A stretch of DNA of 64,000 nt, taken from Bacteroidota bacterium (lineage in GTDB: Bacteria > Bacteroidota > Bacteroidia > Flavobacteriales > Schleiferiaceae). Shown one piece after another: positions 22,487 through 62,035 of the stretch (the stretch's first letter is position 1; every line of letters begins with the position of its first letter). Where the stretch lies: the NCBI GenBank assembly GCA_024742495.1, contig JANSYJ010000003.1, positions 248,001 through 312,000 on the forward strand. Direction: 5' to 3'. The position numbers were made by a program, and so were the translations under genes. The notes beneath the pieces are model-generated. The model made no database searches and was not told where the DNA came from. It saw only the letters and a program-made list of their open reading frames with translations.

Positions 22487-25051
22487 ATGGCTGCAGATGA
22501 ACGCATAATACCGATCAATATTGAGGAGGAAATGAAATCCTCCTACATCGATTATTCGATGTCCGTGATCGTGTCACGTGCCTTACCAGATGTTAGAGAT
22601 GGATTGAAACCGGTTCACCGCCGGGTGCTTTTCGGGATGTACGAATTAGGCGTCCTCTCTAATCGATCTTATAAGAAATCAGCCCGTATCGTGGGTGAGG
22701 TATTGGGTAAGTTTCACCCTCATGGTGATTCTTCAGTATATGATACCATGGTTCGTATGGCCCAGCCTTGGAGCCTCCGGTACATGATGGTGGATGGTCA
22801 AGGTAACTTTGGATCAATCGATGGAGACCCCCCGGCAGCAATGCGTTATACCGAAGCAAGGTTGCGTAAGATTTCGGAGGAAATGCTGGCCGACATCGAT
22901 AAGGAGACCGTAGATACCCAGTTAAACTTTGATGATTCTATCTATGAGCCAACGGTAATGCCCACCCGCGTTCCAGGCTTATTGATAAATGGTGCATCTG
23001 GTATCGCCGTGGGTATGGCTACAAATATGCCACCGCATAACCTTACCGAAGCTATCAATGCCATTAATGCCTATATCGACAATAAGGATATCACCGTAGA
23101 GGAAATGATGCAGCATCATATTACTGCACCAGATTTCCCAACAGGAGGTATCATCTACGGTTATGATGGTGTTAAGGATGCTTTTGAAACAGGTAGAGGT
23201 AGAATCGTTTTACGCGGTCAAGCGGAAATCCAAGAAATTAAAGGTCGTGAAGCCATTGTAGTTACCGAGATTCCATACTTGGTGAACAAGGCGGAGATGA
23301 TTAAGAAAACCGCAGATCTTGTAAACGATAAGCGCATTGAAGGCATTGCCGATATTAAAGATGAAAGTGACCGTAAGGGACTAAGAGTTGTATATTACTT
23401 AAAACGCGATGCAGTACCCAATGTGGTGCTCAACATGCTGTATAAGTACACCCAACTTCAGTCTAGCTTTTCGGTTAACAATATTGCCCTCGTAAATGGT
23501 CGTCCAGTTCAATTGAACATTAAGGACATGATTCATCACTTCGTAAATCACCGCGTTGATGTGGTAATACGAAGAACCAATTACGAATTGCGCAAGGCGG
23601 AAGAACGGGCTCATATTCTAGAGGGTCTTATTATCGCTAGCGATAATATCGACGAGGTAATTCAAATCATCAGGTCTTCTCCAAGTCCAGATGAAGCCCG
23701 CAGTAGGCTGGAAAAACGCTTTGAATTAAGCGAAATTCAAGCGCGTGCCATCGTAGATATGCGTCTGCGTCACCTTACCGGACTGGAGCAGGATAAACTG
23801 CGCACCGAGTACGATGAGTTAATGAAGACCATTGAATACCTTAAGCGTATCCTTAATGAGGAAGACCTAAGAATGTCGATCATTAAAGAGGAACTAGAGG
23901 AAATTAAAGAGAAGTATGGCGATGAGCGCCGCACCGCTATAGATTATGCGGGAGGTTCGCTGAGCATCGAGGATATGATTCCAGATGAGGAAGTGGTAAT
24001 TACTATTTCTCATGCTGGCTATATAAAACGTACTTCACTATCCGAATACCGCAAACAAGGGCGAGGAGGTGTTGGTCAAAAAGGTGTGAATACCCGAGAT
24101 CAAGATTTCATTGAGCACATTTTTGTGGCTACCAATCACAATTACCTGCTATTCTTTACCGAATGGGGTCGTTGTTTCTGGTTAAGGGTTTATGAAGTTC
24201 CAGAAGGTAGTAAGGCCAGTAAAGGACGCGCTATTCAAAACCTGATTAATATTCCACAGGATGATAATCTAAGAGCCTTTATTAATACCAAGGATCTTAG
24301 AGATGAAGAGTATGTGAACAATAACTTCATCGTGATGGTAACCCAGAAAGGGGTTATCAAGAAAACCAGTCTTGAAGCTTATTCACGTCCTCGTTCAAAT
24401 GGAATTAATGCCATTACCATTAGAGAAGGAGATACCCTTCTTGAGGCTAAACTCACCACCGGGAATGACGATATCCTGATGGCCGTAAAAAGCGGTAAAG
24501 CAATCCGATTTAATGAGAATGCCGTACGTTCCATGGGACGTAACGCAAGTGGCGTAAGAGGCGTAAGCCTTGCCAATGAAGACGATGCTGTGGTTGGCAT
24601 GGTTACCATCCCAGAGGAAAGTCAGGATACTACTTCTATCTTAGTGGTTTCAGAAAATGGCTTCGGTAAGCGTAGTTTATTGGATGATTATCGTATTACA
24701 AACCGCGGCGGAAAAGGGGTAAAGACCATTACCGTAAGTGAGAAAACAGGAAACTTAGTTGCTATAAAAGCCGTAACCGATGAGGATGATCTTATGGTTA
24801 TCAACAAGAGCGGCATCATGATTAGGATTGGCATTGCCGAACTACGTGTGATGGGAAGAGCAACGCAAGGGGTTAAGCTTATTAATCTTAAAAAGAAAGA
24901 TTCAATTGCTTCCGTTGCAAAGGTTCCCGTTAGTGAAGAAGAAGAATTAATTGAAGGAGAAAGTGTAGAAGGATTAGAAAATCAGGCTGGCTCAGAAAGC
25001 CCCGGAAACCCGGAAACGCCTGCTAGTCCCGACGAACCTTCGGATAGTTAA
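22487..25051 (+). CDS. gyrA: DNA gyrase subunit A
   Basis: The 854-residue protein is complete. The winged-helix domain has [17 protein letters not shown], with Ser82 and Asp86 at the positions where changes give quinolone resistance (E. coli Ser83, Asp87), both in the susceptible state. The catalytic tyrosine is Tyr121 in AMRYTEARL. The coiled-coil gate and six-bladed C-terminal propeller follow, including the GyrA box [10 protein letters not shown] (about residue 525) that defines gyrase rather than topoisomerase IV. The last 40 residues are acidic and low-complexity. With GyrB it introduces negative supercoils. It is transcribed alone, ending at a strong terminator immediately after the stop. 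Confidence 0.97.
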
Positions 25052-44283: not shown

Positions 44284-45926
44284 TATGCGGCGCTCGCCTT
44301 TTTCTTCTTTCTCCAACGGTTGAAAATTGTAACTCCAACAAGCACTACCATAAAAGGCCAGAAATAGCTACGACGTTCACCATCGCCACTAACAGTGGTA
44401 AATACGCGATCAAATCGGATTTTCTCGAATAAGGAACTACCGTATTTATCAAAACTCATCCAAATGAAAACAGGCTTACCGACGATGTGATCTTCAGGAA
44501 CAAAACCCCAGTAGCGGCTATCCTCAGAATTATGACGGTTATCTCCCATCATCCAATAATAGTCCTGTTCAAAGGTGTAAGAGTTTACCAACTCCCCATC
44601 AATTTGAAATTCGTGATTGGGATTTCCTTTGCTAGGACGAATTACTTTTAAATCGTGACCTTCATAGTCTTCTATAATCGCCTTATAAAGCTTGTAGTTA
44701 TTGATTGTTAGATCAACGGTGGTATTGGCTTTGGGGATATGAATCGGCCCGAAATTATCGCGAGTCCAATTGGTGCCGATGCCCGAAGCATTGCCATAGC
44801 CCATCATTGCGGAGTTGGGGAAAACGCCCCCAGAAACAATACTTTGCCCATGTCTCTTAAGAGAGTTGGGTAGTTTTTTAACCGACGCTCTAGAAAGATC
44901 TAATGGGAAGATGGTATCAATTTGCGGGTAGTCTTGTTTAAACTTTTCAATCTCAGACTCGCTAATGGTGATAAGGTATTCCGCATATCCTGGTGCTTCG
45001 CCTATTTCGTAATAATCACCAGATTCCATTGGATTAATATCATAGCGCTCCTTTAGTTCCAGAGCAGCGCCAAGGCGGCCATTTTTAGTGCGAACGTAAT
45101 ATTGAAATTGAGCATCAGCTCTTTCAGGCATTTGGCTGAGGCTTCCGTTTACATAAACTTCCAGATTTTTAATTTGCAGGGTATCTCCAGGTAAACCTAA
45201 GCAGCGCTTTACATAATGATCACGCTTATCAACCGGGTATTCCAATTGACGTGGGTAGTTGAATACCACCGGGTCGTTTCGCTCAACGTCACTTAATTTC
45301 GGTAGCCGTAAGTAGGGGAATTGAACCGCACCGCTAAAGGCTTTAATTTCGGTAAAGGGAACTTTGTTGTGCATTAAGGGAAAGGAGAAAGGCGTCATCG
45401 GTAAACGACTGCCATATTGCAATTTGCTAACAAACAAAAAATCGCCCACCATCATAGAACGTTCCATCGAGGGAGTAGGGATGGTAAAAGCCTCAAAGGT
45501 ATAGGCCCTAATTAGGGTTGCGGCAATTATGGCAAAGACAATTGAAGCAAAACCTTCACTGATATACTTTCTAATAATTTTTAGATCCCTGTCTTGATAC
45601 TTTAATGGAGAGCTGTATCCAAGATATCCGAAATAAAGCCCTGCGCTTAGAATTCCGATAACCGTATTCTTCACATTAGCAATGCGATACATGTGTAATA
45701 ATTCAAAGAATATCACCGCCATCATAACATTCCCCACAACGGGAAGAATCGCTAAGGCTGTCCACCACCAAGGCCTTTTAATGACCTTCGTCATGATGTA
45801 AATATTGTAAAAAGGTAACAGGGCTTGCCAGCTTTTATATCCGGCGCCTGTGATAAACTTAAGGGCCAGTATTCCGTAATAAAGGTGTAAAAGCGTGAGG
45901 AATACTAAAGTAAGGCCTATACTCAT
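44283..45926 (-). CDS. lepB: Signal peptidase I, long Bacteroidota form
   Basis: A 547-residue signal peptidase. Three N-terminal membrane segments (residues 1-105; FITGAGYKSWQALLPFYNIYIMTK is a Bacteroidota-specific extension resembling DUF5684) precede the membrane helix near 125-145, after which come catalytic Ser153 in PTPSMERSM, the lysine Lys240 in VKRCLGLPGDTLQI and the late motif YWMMGDNRHNSEDSR. A large insertion (about 250-430) carries the extra periplasmic domain. It removes signal peptides after Sec export. Overlaps dapB by 4 bases and the WbqC-family gene by 1. Confidence 0.94.
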   Translation of the reverse strand: MSIGLTLVFLTLLHLYYGILALKFITGAGYKSWQALLPFYNIYIMTKVIKRPWWWTALAILPVVGNVMMAVIFFELLHMYRIANVKNTVIGILSAGLYFGYLGYSSPLKYQDRDLKIIRKYISEGFASIVFAIIAATLIRAYTFEAFTIPTPSMERSMMVGDFLFVSKLQYGSRLPMTPFSFPLMHNKVPFTEIKAFSGAVQFPYLRLPKLSDVERNDPVVFNYPRQLEYPVDKRDHYVKRCLGLPGDTLQIKNLEVYVNGSLSQMPERADAQFQYYVRTKNGRLGAALELKERYDINPMESGDYYEIGEAPGYAEYLITISESEIEKFKQDYPQIDTIFPLDLSRASVKKLPNSLKRHGQSIVSGGVFPNSAMMGYGNASGIGTNWTRDNFGPIHIPKANTTVDLTINNYKLYKAIIEDYEGHDLKVIRPSKGNPNHEFQIDGELVNSYTFEQDYYWMMGDNRHNSEDSRYWGFVPEDHIVGKPVFIWMSFDKYGSSLFEKIRFDRVFTTVSGDGERRSYFWPFMVVLVGVTIFNRWRKKKKASAA

Positions 45927-46639
45927 GATTTAAGATTTAATACGTCGCGCATGCTGTAAACGCCGCTTTTACCATTTAGGTATTCCGCAGCAATTACAGC
46001 ACCCAGGGCAAAGCCTTGGCGACTGTGAGCAGTATGTTTAATTTCTATTGTGTCGATGGCACTTTCATAACGAATGCTATGTGTACCAGGGGTTTCATTT
46101 TCTCGAATCGCTTCAATGGAAAGATCGGAAGGGAGTTTAGATTCTTCTTTTAGCGCCCAATTTTCAAAATCCTTTCTTTCTGCTAAAATATCTTCCGCTA
46201 AGCTAATTGCCGTTCCTGAAGGTGCATCCTTTTTATGGATATGATGAATTTCTTGAAGGGAAGGAGTGTAGCTTGGGAAGTCCTTTAATAGTTGAGCCAA
46301 TTGCTTATTCAACTCAAAAAATAGGTTTACACCTAGACTAAAGTTAGAAGCGTAAATAAACCCACCTTTATACTTTTGGCAGCTTTCTATTGCCTGCTCA
46401 TAGTTTTGCAACCAACCGGTTGTGCCGGTTACCACGGGAATTCCGCTTTTAAAGCAGCTGCAAATGTTTTGATAAGCGGTCTCGGGCAAACTAAACTCTA
46501 TCGCGACATCGGCTTTAGAGAGTAGGTCCGGGTCAATTCCTTCCGAACCAAAAGTTGCTACTACTTCATGCCCGCGCTCCAAGAGTATTCTTTCAATACT
46601 CTTTCCCATTTTCCCGTATCCAATTAGGGCTACTTTCAC
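45923..46639 (-). CDS. dapB: 4-hydroxy-tetrahydrodipicolinate reductase
   Basis: The 238-residue protein has the NAD(P)-binding GYGKMGKSIERIL near its start, the TGTTGW loop, and the catalytic His/Lys motif EIHHIHKKDAPSGTAISLAE (about residue 130). DapB reduces the dihydrodipicolinate precursor in the diaminopimelate and lysine pathway. At 238 residues it is slightly shorter than the Proteobacterial form, as is usual in Bacteroidota. Overlaps the genes on both sides by 4 bases. Confidence 0.95.
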   Translation of the reverse strand: MKVALIGYGKMGKSIERILLERGHEVVATFGSEGIDPDLLSKADVAIEFSLPETAYQNICSCFKSGIPVVTGTTGWLQNYEQAIESCQKYKGGFIYASNFSLGVNLFFELNKQLAQLLKDFPSYTPSLQEIHHIHKKDAPSGTAISLAEDILAERKDFENWALKEESKLPSDLSIEAIRENETPGTHSIRYESAIDTIEIKHTAHSRQGFALGAVIAAEYLNGKSGVYSMRDVLNLKS

Positions 46640-47091
46640 GGATCGAGATTTATTTTAAAACTTAAGCCAACAGCGGGAATGCCATAGTTGCCGCCAACCT
46701 GAAACATACTTGGTTGCAGGCGAAAGCTTAAATTATCGTTTACATTATAGTAGAATAAATGCGCATCAACATGGGCATCTACAACATTAAGCGCCCAAAT
46801 AACGGCGCCAATAATGATGGAAAGATCTCGATAATCGCGATAGATGTTTTGGAGTTCAATGAGCTGGCGTTCGGTATAAATCCCTTGATATTGGTCAACA
46901 CCAGAACTGTCTACCCGCATTAAAAAGGCATCTAAATAGCGGCGGTAAAGTTGATGGTTCTCATAGGCTAAATAGCCGCAATAACCAATGCCACCATATA
47001 TAATGGGCATCTTCCAATATTTACCGTTGTAGGCCTGACCAGCGCCGGGTAATAAAGTAGAAAGCCAAGTAGCCCGGCTAACGGAGTGCAT
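46636..47091 (-). CDS. DUF5683 membrane protein (ORF from first ATG)
   Basis: The 151 residues from the first ATG contain the DUF5683 core: LPGAGQAYNGKYWKMPIIYGGIG and two membrane helices, followed by a beta-rich tail ending LSFKINLDP. The core is usually preceded by a signal peptide of about 40 residues, which is in frame upstream but has no canonical start (see the 47092-47214 entry), so the true protein is probably longer. Function unknown; the gene is conserved between parB and dapB in Bacteroidota and probably encodes an envelope protein. Overlaps dapB by 4 bases. Confidence 0.85.
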   Translation of the reverse strand: MHSVSRATWLSTLLPGAGQAYNGKYWKMPIIYGGIGYCGYLAYENHQLYRRYLDAFLMRVDSSGVDQYQGIYTERQLIELQNIYRDYRDLSIIIGAVIWALNVVDAHVDAHLFYYNVNDNLSFRLQPSMFQVGGNYGIPAVGLSFKINLDP

Positions 47092-47214
47092 TTCGCTGCT
47101 ATCGAGGGGAACAATTATTTGCTCGCTCTCTTCAACCTGAACGGAATCTAAGCTTTGCGCACCAAGGTTTAATCCAATTAGACAAAGGGCAATATGTAGG
47201 CCGCGTTTTAAGAT
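47092..47214 (-). other. Probable N-terminal coding extension of the DUF5683 gene without a canonical start codon
   Basis: Reading upstream in frame from the ATG at 47091, the translation is LKRGLHIALCLIGLNLGAQS and a short acidic linker, i.e. a standard signal peptide ending GAQS. The frame is open back to an in-frame TAA inside parB (about 25 codons before residue one of the core is counted from ATC at 47214), and the whole open region contains no ATG, GTG, TTG or CTG. Possible starts are ATC (47214) or ATT codons, coupled to the parB stop a few bases away. Confidence 0.55.
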
Positions 47215-47218
47215 AGCC

Positions 47219-48112
47219 TTAAGATTGGAGTTGCTCCAAAATGCGATTTAGTTCCGCATCACTGCTAAAAGCAATGGTAATTTTTCCTTTACCGCGTTTA
47301 CTGCGACTTAGCTCAACGGCAGTTTGTAAATCGGCACTCAGCTCTTCTTTAGCTTTCACATATTCCGCTGGTAGCGGATTGGTTCTGGACTTTGGGCTTC
47401 TGCCTTTGTCTTCATTTTTTAAATTCCGAACCGCATCTTCAACCTGGCGAACGCTCAATTCCTTTTTAATAGCTGTATGGTAGAGGTCAACTTGCTCATC
47501 TTCATGGCTCACATTAATCAAAGCCCGAGCGTGACCCATGCTAATCATTTTATCGCGAAGCCCCGCCTGAATTAGCGGTTGTAGCTTGAGCAGTCGCAGG
47601 TAGTTGGTTATAGTGGAACGTTTCTTTCCAACCCTTTCACTCATGGCTTCTTGGGTTAGTTGACATTCATCTATAAGACGTTGATAGCTCAAGGCAATTT
47701 CTATGGGGTCGAGTTCTTCTCTTTGGATGTTCTCCACCAAAGCCATTTCTAGCACCTCTTGATCATCCGCCAAACGAATGTATGCCGGTATAGCGCTAAG
47801 ACCAGCTATTTTAGAGGCCCTAAAACGACGCTCTCCAGAGATAATCTGGAATTGATTGTTTTCGGCTCTACGAACGGTTATCGGTTGGATAATCCCCAAC
47901 TCTTTAATCGAACTTGCCAGTTCCTCTAAAGCTTCTTTATCGAAAATGGTACGCGGCTGGTCGGGATTAGCCAGTATTTGGTCCATGGGGATTTCCGCCA
48001 CAGATCCCAATACCTTTTCAGCATTTTCATCCTTACCGGAATTTACATTGCCATTATCGTTTAAAAGGGCCGCTAAACCCTTTCCCATTGCCTTACGTTT
48101 CGGTGTCGCCAT
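47219..48112 (-). CDS. parB: Chromosome partitioning protein ParB
   Basis: The 297-residue protein has the N-terminal nuclease-like/CTP-binding region (MDQILANPDQPRTIFDKEALEELASSIKELGIIQPITVR, then ISGERRFRASKIAGL), a helix-turn-helix (LTQEAMSERVGKKRSTITNYLRLLKL) and a C-terminal dimerisation domain. The GERRxRA motif binds CTP in ParB clamps. It acts with ParA to segregate the chromosome origin. Its parS site is not recognisable nearby. Starts 24 bases after the parA stop. Confidence 0.95.
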   Translation of the reverse strand: MATPKRKAMGKGLAALLNDNGNVNSGKDENAEKVLGSVAEIPMDQILANPDQPRTIFDKEALEELASSIKELGIIQPITVRRAENNQFQIISGERRFRASKIAGLSAIPAYIRLADDQEVLEMALVENIQREELDPIEIALSYQRLIDECQLTQEAMSERVGKKRSTITNYLRLLKLQPLIQAGLRDKMISMGHARALINVSHEDEQVDLYHTAIKKELSVRQVEDAVRNLKNEDKGRSPKSRTNPLPAEYVKAKEELSADLQTAVELSRSKRGKGKITIAFSSDAELNRILEQLQS

Positions 48113-61863: not shown

Positions 61864-61928
61864 TTTTCTAGTTCTAAAACTAAATCCAAGGTAATCAAAA
61901 AAAGTAGAGATAAAAGGAGAGAAAAAAA

Positions 61929-62030
61929 TAAGGCAAGCGATCCATATCACACCGCTACGACCAATTACCCTTGCTGCGTTCCCGCCCTGGGGGAGTTCAT
62001 TAGGAGCTGGTTGTATGGGACTTGCCTTAC
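61929..62030 (-). ncRNA. ffs: Signal recognition particle RNA (small type)
   Basis: The minus strand carries CCCCCAGGGCGGGAACGCAG and AGCAAGGG, matching the SRP domain IV core (CAGG, GGAA tetraloop region, AGCA). The RNA is closed by a perfect 9 bp stem between taaggcaag at the 3' end (plus-strand 61929-61937) and cttgcctta (62021-62029). A T-rich tract (TTATTTTTTT) follows immediately, as expected of a terminator. Size about 100 nt is standard for Bacteroidota. It binds Ffh to target membrane proteins. An overlapping TAnnTTTG promoter at 62036-62043 fits the 5' end. Confidence 0.93.
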
Positions 62031-62035
62031 GGGGG

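Follow-up and report, generated by a model that had tools for sequence, protein, structure and literature searches.

The DUF5683 frame between parB and dapB

On the minus strand of the window (the whole 64,000-nucleotide stretch of DNA that was analyzed), parB is followed by a gene for a DUF5683 protein and then by dapB (Table 1). The locus raises the question of where translation of the DUF5683 gene begins. Its frame opens behind a TAA inside parB, and from 47247 down to the first ATG, which is codon 53 counted from 1, we found no ATG, GTG, TTG or CTG, just as the original prediction had claimed. The codons ahead of this ATG encode IAFWSNSNLKAILKRGLHIALCLIGLNLGAQS, a peptide in which a short basic region precedes a hydrophobic core and the end is AQ. 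The near-cognate codons in this stretch are ATC 47247, AAG 47220, ATC 47214, ATT 47193, ATT 47178, ATA 47118 and ATT 47115, and the second ATC (47214-47212) lies 4 nt past the parB TAA. Three solutions had been put forward, namely initiation at an ATC or ATT near the parB stop, an error in the sequence, and a frameshift; comparison with relatives favored the first. The span of 46636-47219 originally given for the gene held at its 46636 end, but base 47219 still belongs to the parB stop, as its last base; the coding sequence that we propose is 46636-47214. At the dapB side, the GTG start of dapB overlaps the DUF5683 stop in the sequence GTGA (window 46636-46639).

Table 1. Features of the parB-DUF5683-dapB locus, in window coordinates
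Feature	Position	Strand	Remarks
parB	47219..48112	-	Pfam ParB_N, HTH_ParB and ParB_C all above cut-off
parB stop TAA	47221-47219	-	
In-frame TAA within parB, upstream bound of the DUF5683 frame	47248..47250	-	
DUF5683 open frame	47247 to TGA 46638-46636	-	203 codons
Spacer GGCT, parB stop to proposed start	47215..47218	-	4 nt; 1-5 nt in seven genomes
Proposed start codon ATC (AUC)	47212..47214	-	predicted; position common to 7 genomes as ATC/ATT
Predicted signal peptide	47155..47214	-	20 codons, (M)LKRGLHIALCLIGLNLGAQ; model helix 2-15; conserved c-region
Linker	47092..47154	-	purifying selection in the DUF5683 frame
First in-frame ATG	47089..47091	-	rejected as start; unconserved in genus
DUF5683 domain (PF18935)	46648..47091	-	Pfam 159.7 bits, above the curated cut-off of 26.7; profile 2-150 of 151
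Proposed DUF5683 coding sequence	46636..47214	-	192 aa + stop
dapB	45923..46639	-	GTG start

A Pfam search up to E 10 returned no family other than DUF5683, and NCBIfam gave only LIC11435_fam (E 0.0063, 15.4 bits), far below its cut-off of 380. The AlphaFold2 model of the protein (mean pLDDT 80.4, pTM 0.61) shows a signal helix, two long helices and a C-terminal strand pair; a Foldseek search of this model against the PDB reached a best E value of 0.67, with nothing at E ≤ 0.001. Within the open-access literature, to which the search was confined (subscription papers lay outside it), we found no paper on the DUF5683 start; the single paper listed there that names DUF5683 concerns nematode receptors.

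Codons ahead of the first ATG evolve as protein-coding sequence

We compared the window's genome (G000) with the other members of its genus, which comprises seven genomes, all carrying the DUF5683 gene, and with the one genome of the sister genus (G008). For G001 and G002, two closely related species of the genus, comparison of the 39 codons that lie between the proposed start and the domain shows 8 synonymous changes and 1 non-synonymous change, and dN/dS ahead of the domain is 0.02, equal to the value within the domain. The corresponding value ahead of the domain is 0.18 for G000 and G006. Faster divergence of the signal-peptide region is seen in wider pairs, with dN/dS of 0.37 for G000 and G001 and 0.26 for G006 and G001; two further pairs were saturated. 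Because dN/dS is low in the G001-G002 and G000-G006 pairs, the comparison indicates that the stretch before ATG 47091 is coding in the DUF5683 frame and includes a fast-evolving predicted signal peptide. The claim of a signal peptide upstream of the first ATG was borne out in this respect: it is present in frame, in codons selected as protein.

These data bear directly on the possibility that translation starts at ATG 47091 to give a 151-residue protein lacking the signal peptide, the finding named beforehand as grounds for abandoning the upstream start. This ATG is the only canonical start in the frame, and the Pfam domain match starts exactly there. Such a start is contradicted by the purifying selection on the codons upstream and by the lack of conservation of the ATG, which aligns with Leu in G001 and G002 and with Val in G003 and is therefore not a shared start. 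Moreover, in orthologues found elsewhere, a GTG, TTG or ATG at the parB junction is followed by a hydrophobic N-terminal segment. We therefore regard initiation at 47091 as quite improbable. Gene callers limited to ATG, GTG and TTG would cut the protein at this position, with loss of the signal peptide and a change in the predicted location.

A near-cognate codon is conserved just behind the parB stop

Alignment of the orthologues, which had been suggested as a check, placed an ATC or ATT just behind the parB stop. One or the other codon is found in frame 1-5 nt past the parB TAA in six of the seven genus genomes and in the single sister-genus genome: ATC in G000 (4 nt) and G006 (5 nt), and ATT in G001, G002, G005 and G008 (4 nt each) and in G004 (1 nt). 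G003 has GTG instead, 1 nt past the TAA, so that the near-cognate codon occupies this one position in seven of the eight g1/g3 genomes. Counted from the ATC or ATT, the signal peptide reaches its Ala/Gly-Gln end after 20 residues in six of the seven genomes and after 24 in G008; counted from the GTG of G003, it does so after 24. This A/G-Q c-region is present in all eight g1/g3 sequences, and Q20 is almost invariant among 38 aligned sequences.

Four of the seven near-cognate genomes (G000, G006, G005 and G008) lack any ATG, GTG or TTG ahead of the hydrophobic core. The core itself contains a GTG in G008, and a CTG lies in or at the core in G006 and G005. The near-cognate codon is not strictly needed in the other three: within parB, 15-16 codons upstream, G001 and G002 contain ATG ATG, and in G004 a TTG immediately follows the ATT and an ATG precedes it by 14 codons.

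The same comparison was informative about a sequencing error or a recent mutation that removed an ATG, GTG or TTG in the window's strain. The species is represented by one assembly, in which the base has no independent re-read, but ATT or ATC replaces the canonical codon at the same place in six other species of the clade. These include the nearest relative, G006, which has the same ATC at 76% protein identity. An error or strain-specific loss is thus extremely unlikely, and the clade-wide ATC/ATT looks like a real, low-output start site rather than a sequencing mistake.

Initiation at another near-cognate codon was weighed in the same way. ATC 47247, AAG 47220 and ATT 47193 are all in frame and open, and an AAG stands one or two codons ahead of the ATT or ATC in G000, G001, G002, G004 and G005. 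Against these candidates, G005 and G008 lack an equivalent of ATC 47247, their frame being closed there, AAG 47220 is replaced by AGC in G006 and by AAA in G008, and ATT 47193 is situated behind the charged n-region. An earlier start is nearly impossible in G005 and G008, because their frame opens just 4 codons ahead of the ATT. Use of one of these other codons is accordingly improbable, and the predicted start is most likely ATC 47214-47212.

We also considered a programmed +1 frameshift at the parB stop, which would yield a ParB-DUF5683 fusion. Shifts to the +1 frame can be stimulated by stop codons (prfB is an example), and here the DUF5683 frame is offset by +1 from parB in six of the seven genomes, with G or A following the stop (TAAG/TAAA); the GTG of G003 is likewise in the +1 frame. 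In G006, however, the offset is -1 and the same ATC is still aligned. The last codons of parB vary (TCT, AAC, TCC, CCT, GAC), and by inspection they offer no common re-pairing to the +1 frame, while 139 other loci show an offset of +1 in 65 cases, -1 in 61 and 0 in 13. The conserved offset and slip site among relatives that would mark a prfB-like case were not found, and a fusion would leave the signal peptide buried behind 297 ParB residues. Together these observations make a frameshift very unlikely, in line with the preference for an ATC/ATT start.

Beyond the clade, an ATT or ATC at 0-6 nt from the parB stop occurs in 9 of 139 other loci compared with 7 of 7 of the near-cognate genomes, a contrast for which no p-value is given since the seven lie in one clade and are not independent events. 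Because the seven genomes are related, the constancy of the near-cognate codon is partly inheritance. In a tree of ParB plus DUF5683 (23 rows, midpoint root), G008 and the seven genus members form one clade (98/97), G003 is sister to the other six genus members (99/94), and G006 is the sister of the window's genome. Reading the state changes by eye, we count two: either the near-cognate codon arose once and G003 switched to GTG, or it arose twice.

A probable near-cognate start of infC in the same genomes

The genus appears to use a near-cognate codon in a second gene. In all seven genus genomes, infC has no ATG, GTG or TTG from the upstream stop to a conserved ATT-CTG-GCx-AAG-AGA; in the window's genome this gene lies outside the window (G000:C30:137423-137626; L130). 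The comparison points to ATT as the start of infC in the genus, though not with certainty, as the CTG in the next codon is also a possible start.

Within the window, 18 of the 62 open reading frames matched in G001, G004, G005, G006 or G008 lack a canonical codon close to where the alignment begins. Nine of these were inspected: the DUF5683 gene, six with an ATG, GTG or TTG where the relatives start, and two lying over a small SRP RNA. The remaining nine are parA (whose usual ATG is at codon 14), six short frames opposite longer ones, and two others. Among the genes examined in the window, only that for DUF5683 is without a canonical start. The small SRP RNA (Bacteroidales, RF04183, 100.4 bits) is on the minus strand at window 61927-62034, and the conserved peptides of the two frames overlapping it are its shadow. 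The two others among the remaining nine are short conserved minus-strand frames at window 22979-23209 and 24688-24981.

Proposed reinitiation behind parB and its relation to known systems

We propose that the DUF5683 product is a secreted or membrane protein whose translation begins at AUC 47214-47212 by inefficient termination-reinitiation after the parB UAA, and we consider this likely. A ribosome would end parB at the UAA, 4 nt ahead of the AUC, and the same ribosome would reinitiate, inefficiently, on the AUC, read as Met by the initiator tRNA. The inefficient start would keep the DUF5683 protein low relative to ParB, and the signal peptide would be cleaved, leaving a predicted mature N-terminus of SLDSVQVEESEQ. 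Coupling to parB is suggested by the distance of 1-5 nt to its stop. Termination-reinitiation is likely because there is neither a Shine-Dalgarno sequence at usable spacing nor a canonical codon. An AAGG overlapping the parB stop was rejected as a Shine-Dalgarno candidate; by inspection its spacing to the ATC, only ~2 nt, is too short. If the proposal is right, reinitiation would operate with neither a Shine-Dalgarno sequence nor a canonical codon.

The initiation context may likewise limit output. Bacteroidota are described, in the parts available of PMC6847099, as being without Shine-Dalgarno sequences, with an A at -3 helping initiation in Flavobacterium johnsoniae. The -3 base of the near-cognate start is not A except in G004, a poor context by that rule. 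A poor codon in a poor context, directly behind a stop, suggests that the ribosomes would be supplied by parB and that the yield would be low. The inverted repeat TTGGAG-CAA-CTCCAA at the end of parB (window 47239-47225) was considered as a part of the mechanism and rejected. This hairpin follows from the ILEQLQ codons and is missing in four of eight genomes; TGGAGNAACTCCA was found in G000, G006, G001 and G002, and was absent from G004, G003, G005 and G008.

Few natural non-canonical bacterial starts have been proven. The classic ATT/ATC-start gene is infC, where, as described in excerpts of PMC5472188, the start serves autoregulation by IF3. Like DUF5683, infC (AUU/AUC/AUA) keeps a near-cognate AUN start across species, with ATT also in the genus studied here; it differs in its IF3 feedback, whereas DUF5683 has no known feedback product and its codon abuts the parB stop. 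The same excerpts describe Streptomyces sigR, whose GTC start is IF3-repressed and sets the ratio of the product to its operon partner (PMC5472188). The two cases share a non-canonical start within an operon and differ in codon and phylum, and ratio control is only proposed for DUF5683. In Staphylococcus aureus, the cvfC1 (AUU) and ccpN (AUA) starts are conserved, with an output of ~10% of that of AUG in poor medium according to portions of PMC13009471. These too are conserved non-canonical starts, but they have extended Shine-Dalgarno motifs, whereas the DUF5683 site sits behind a stop codon. Sections of a Listeria study (PMC13068326) describe infC ATT and rnhC ATC starts in use, and an ATT start of rsbW at a gene overlap that gave reduced but detectable protein. 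The rsbW case resembles ours in combining a non-canonical start with a gene overlap; its ATT and ATA are selected mutants and not clade-wide. In vitro, IF3 lowers initiation on AUU with the CAU anticodon, as stated in part of a codon-anticodon study (PMC10158994). Also comparable are the DUF5683 genes of other Flavobacteriales, which are orthologous, lie at the same place and start with codons other than ATG, there the canonical GTG or TTG and here ATC or ATT. The locus offers a testable case of near-cognate reinitiation in a phylum lacking Shine-Dalgarno sequences.

DUF5683 has a weaker start than its neighbors at wider loci

We tabulated 174 loci, a non-random set made up of family members, the 30 best order-level matches, 20 loci picked across families and 54 named records. 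Removal of 8 identical loci and 20 with a non-adjacent parB left 146. Under a generous rule that accepted every in-frame canonical codon between -36 and +15 nt relative to the end of the parB stop, ATG was available to DUF5683 in 57 of the 146, only GTG in 53, only TTG in 28 (G004 was tallied here) and none in 8. The last group consists of six members of the AUU/AUC clade together with L036 and L186, which have an ATG further on. In comparison, dapB has ATG in 143 of 149 loci (151 hits less 2 that were dropped) and parA in 45 of 45 (90 of 135 hits were dropped because the match fell short of the N-terminus). DUF5683 keeps a weaker start codon than its neighbors, and the contrast between 57 of 146 and these values indicates that weak DUF5683 initiation is widespread, with AUU/AUC as its apparent extreme. 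The stop and start abut or overlap, with GTG or TTG, at 81 of the 146 parB-DUF5683 junctions. Related genera have states in common, as in the Flavobacteriaceae-like group f3, whose inspected loci show GTG at the junction.

The wider pattern to which these counts point is that, within a conserved cluster, a single gene retains a weak start and its neighbors retain ATG. Tentatively, weak DUF5683 initiation behind parB may be a selected set point in Bacteroidota, and the AUU/AUC clade could be IF3-responsive, a second target beside infC; we consider this possible but rather unlikely. If it were so, envelope-protein output from the parA-parB-dapB cluster would rise as initiation stringency falls.

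Order-level loci such as L132-L155 mostly have GTG at the parB-DUF5683 junction, often with one base in common with a TAG stop. At 17 family loci (L092-L102, L104-L106, L122-L124 and others), parB was not found beside DUF5683; most of these come from the small-genome genus g16, and some are contig ends.
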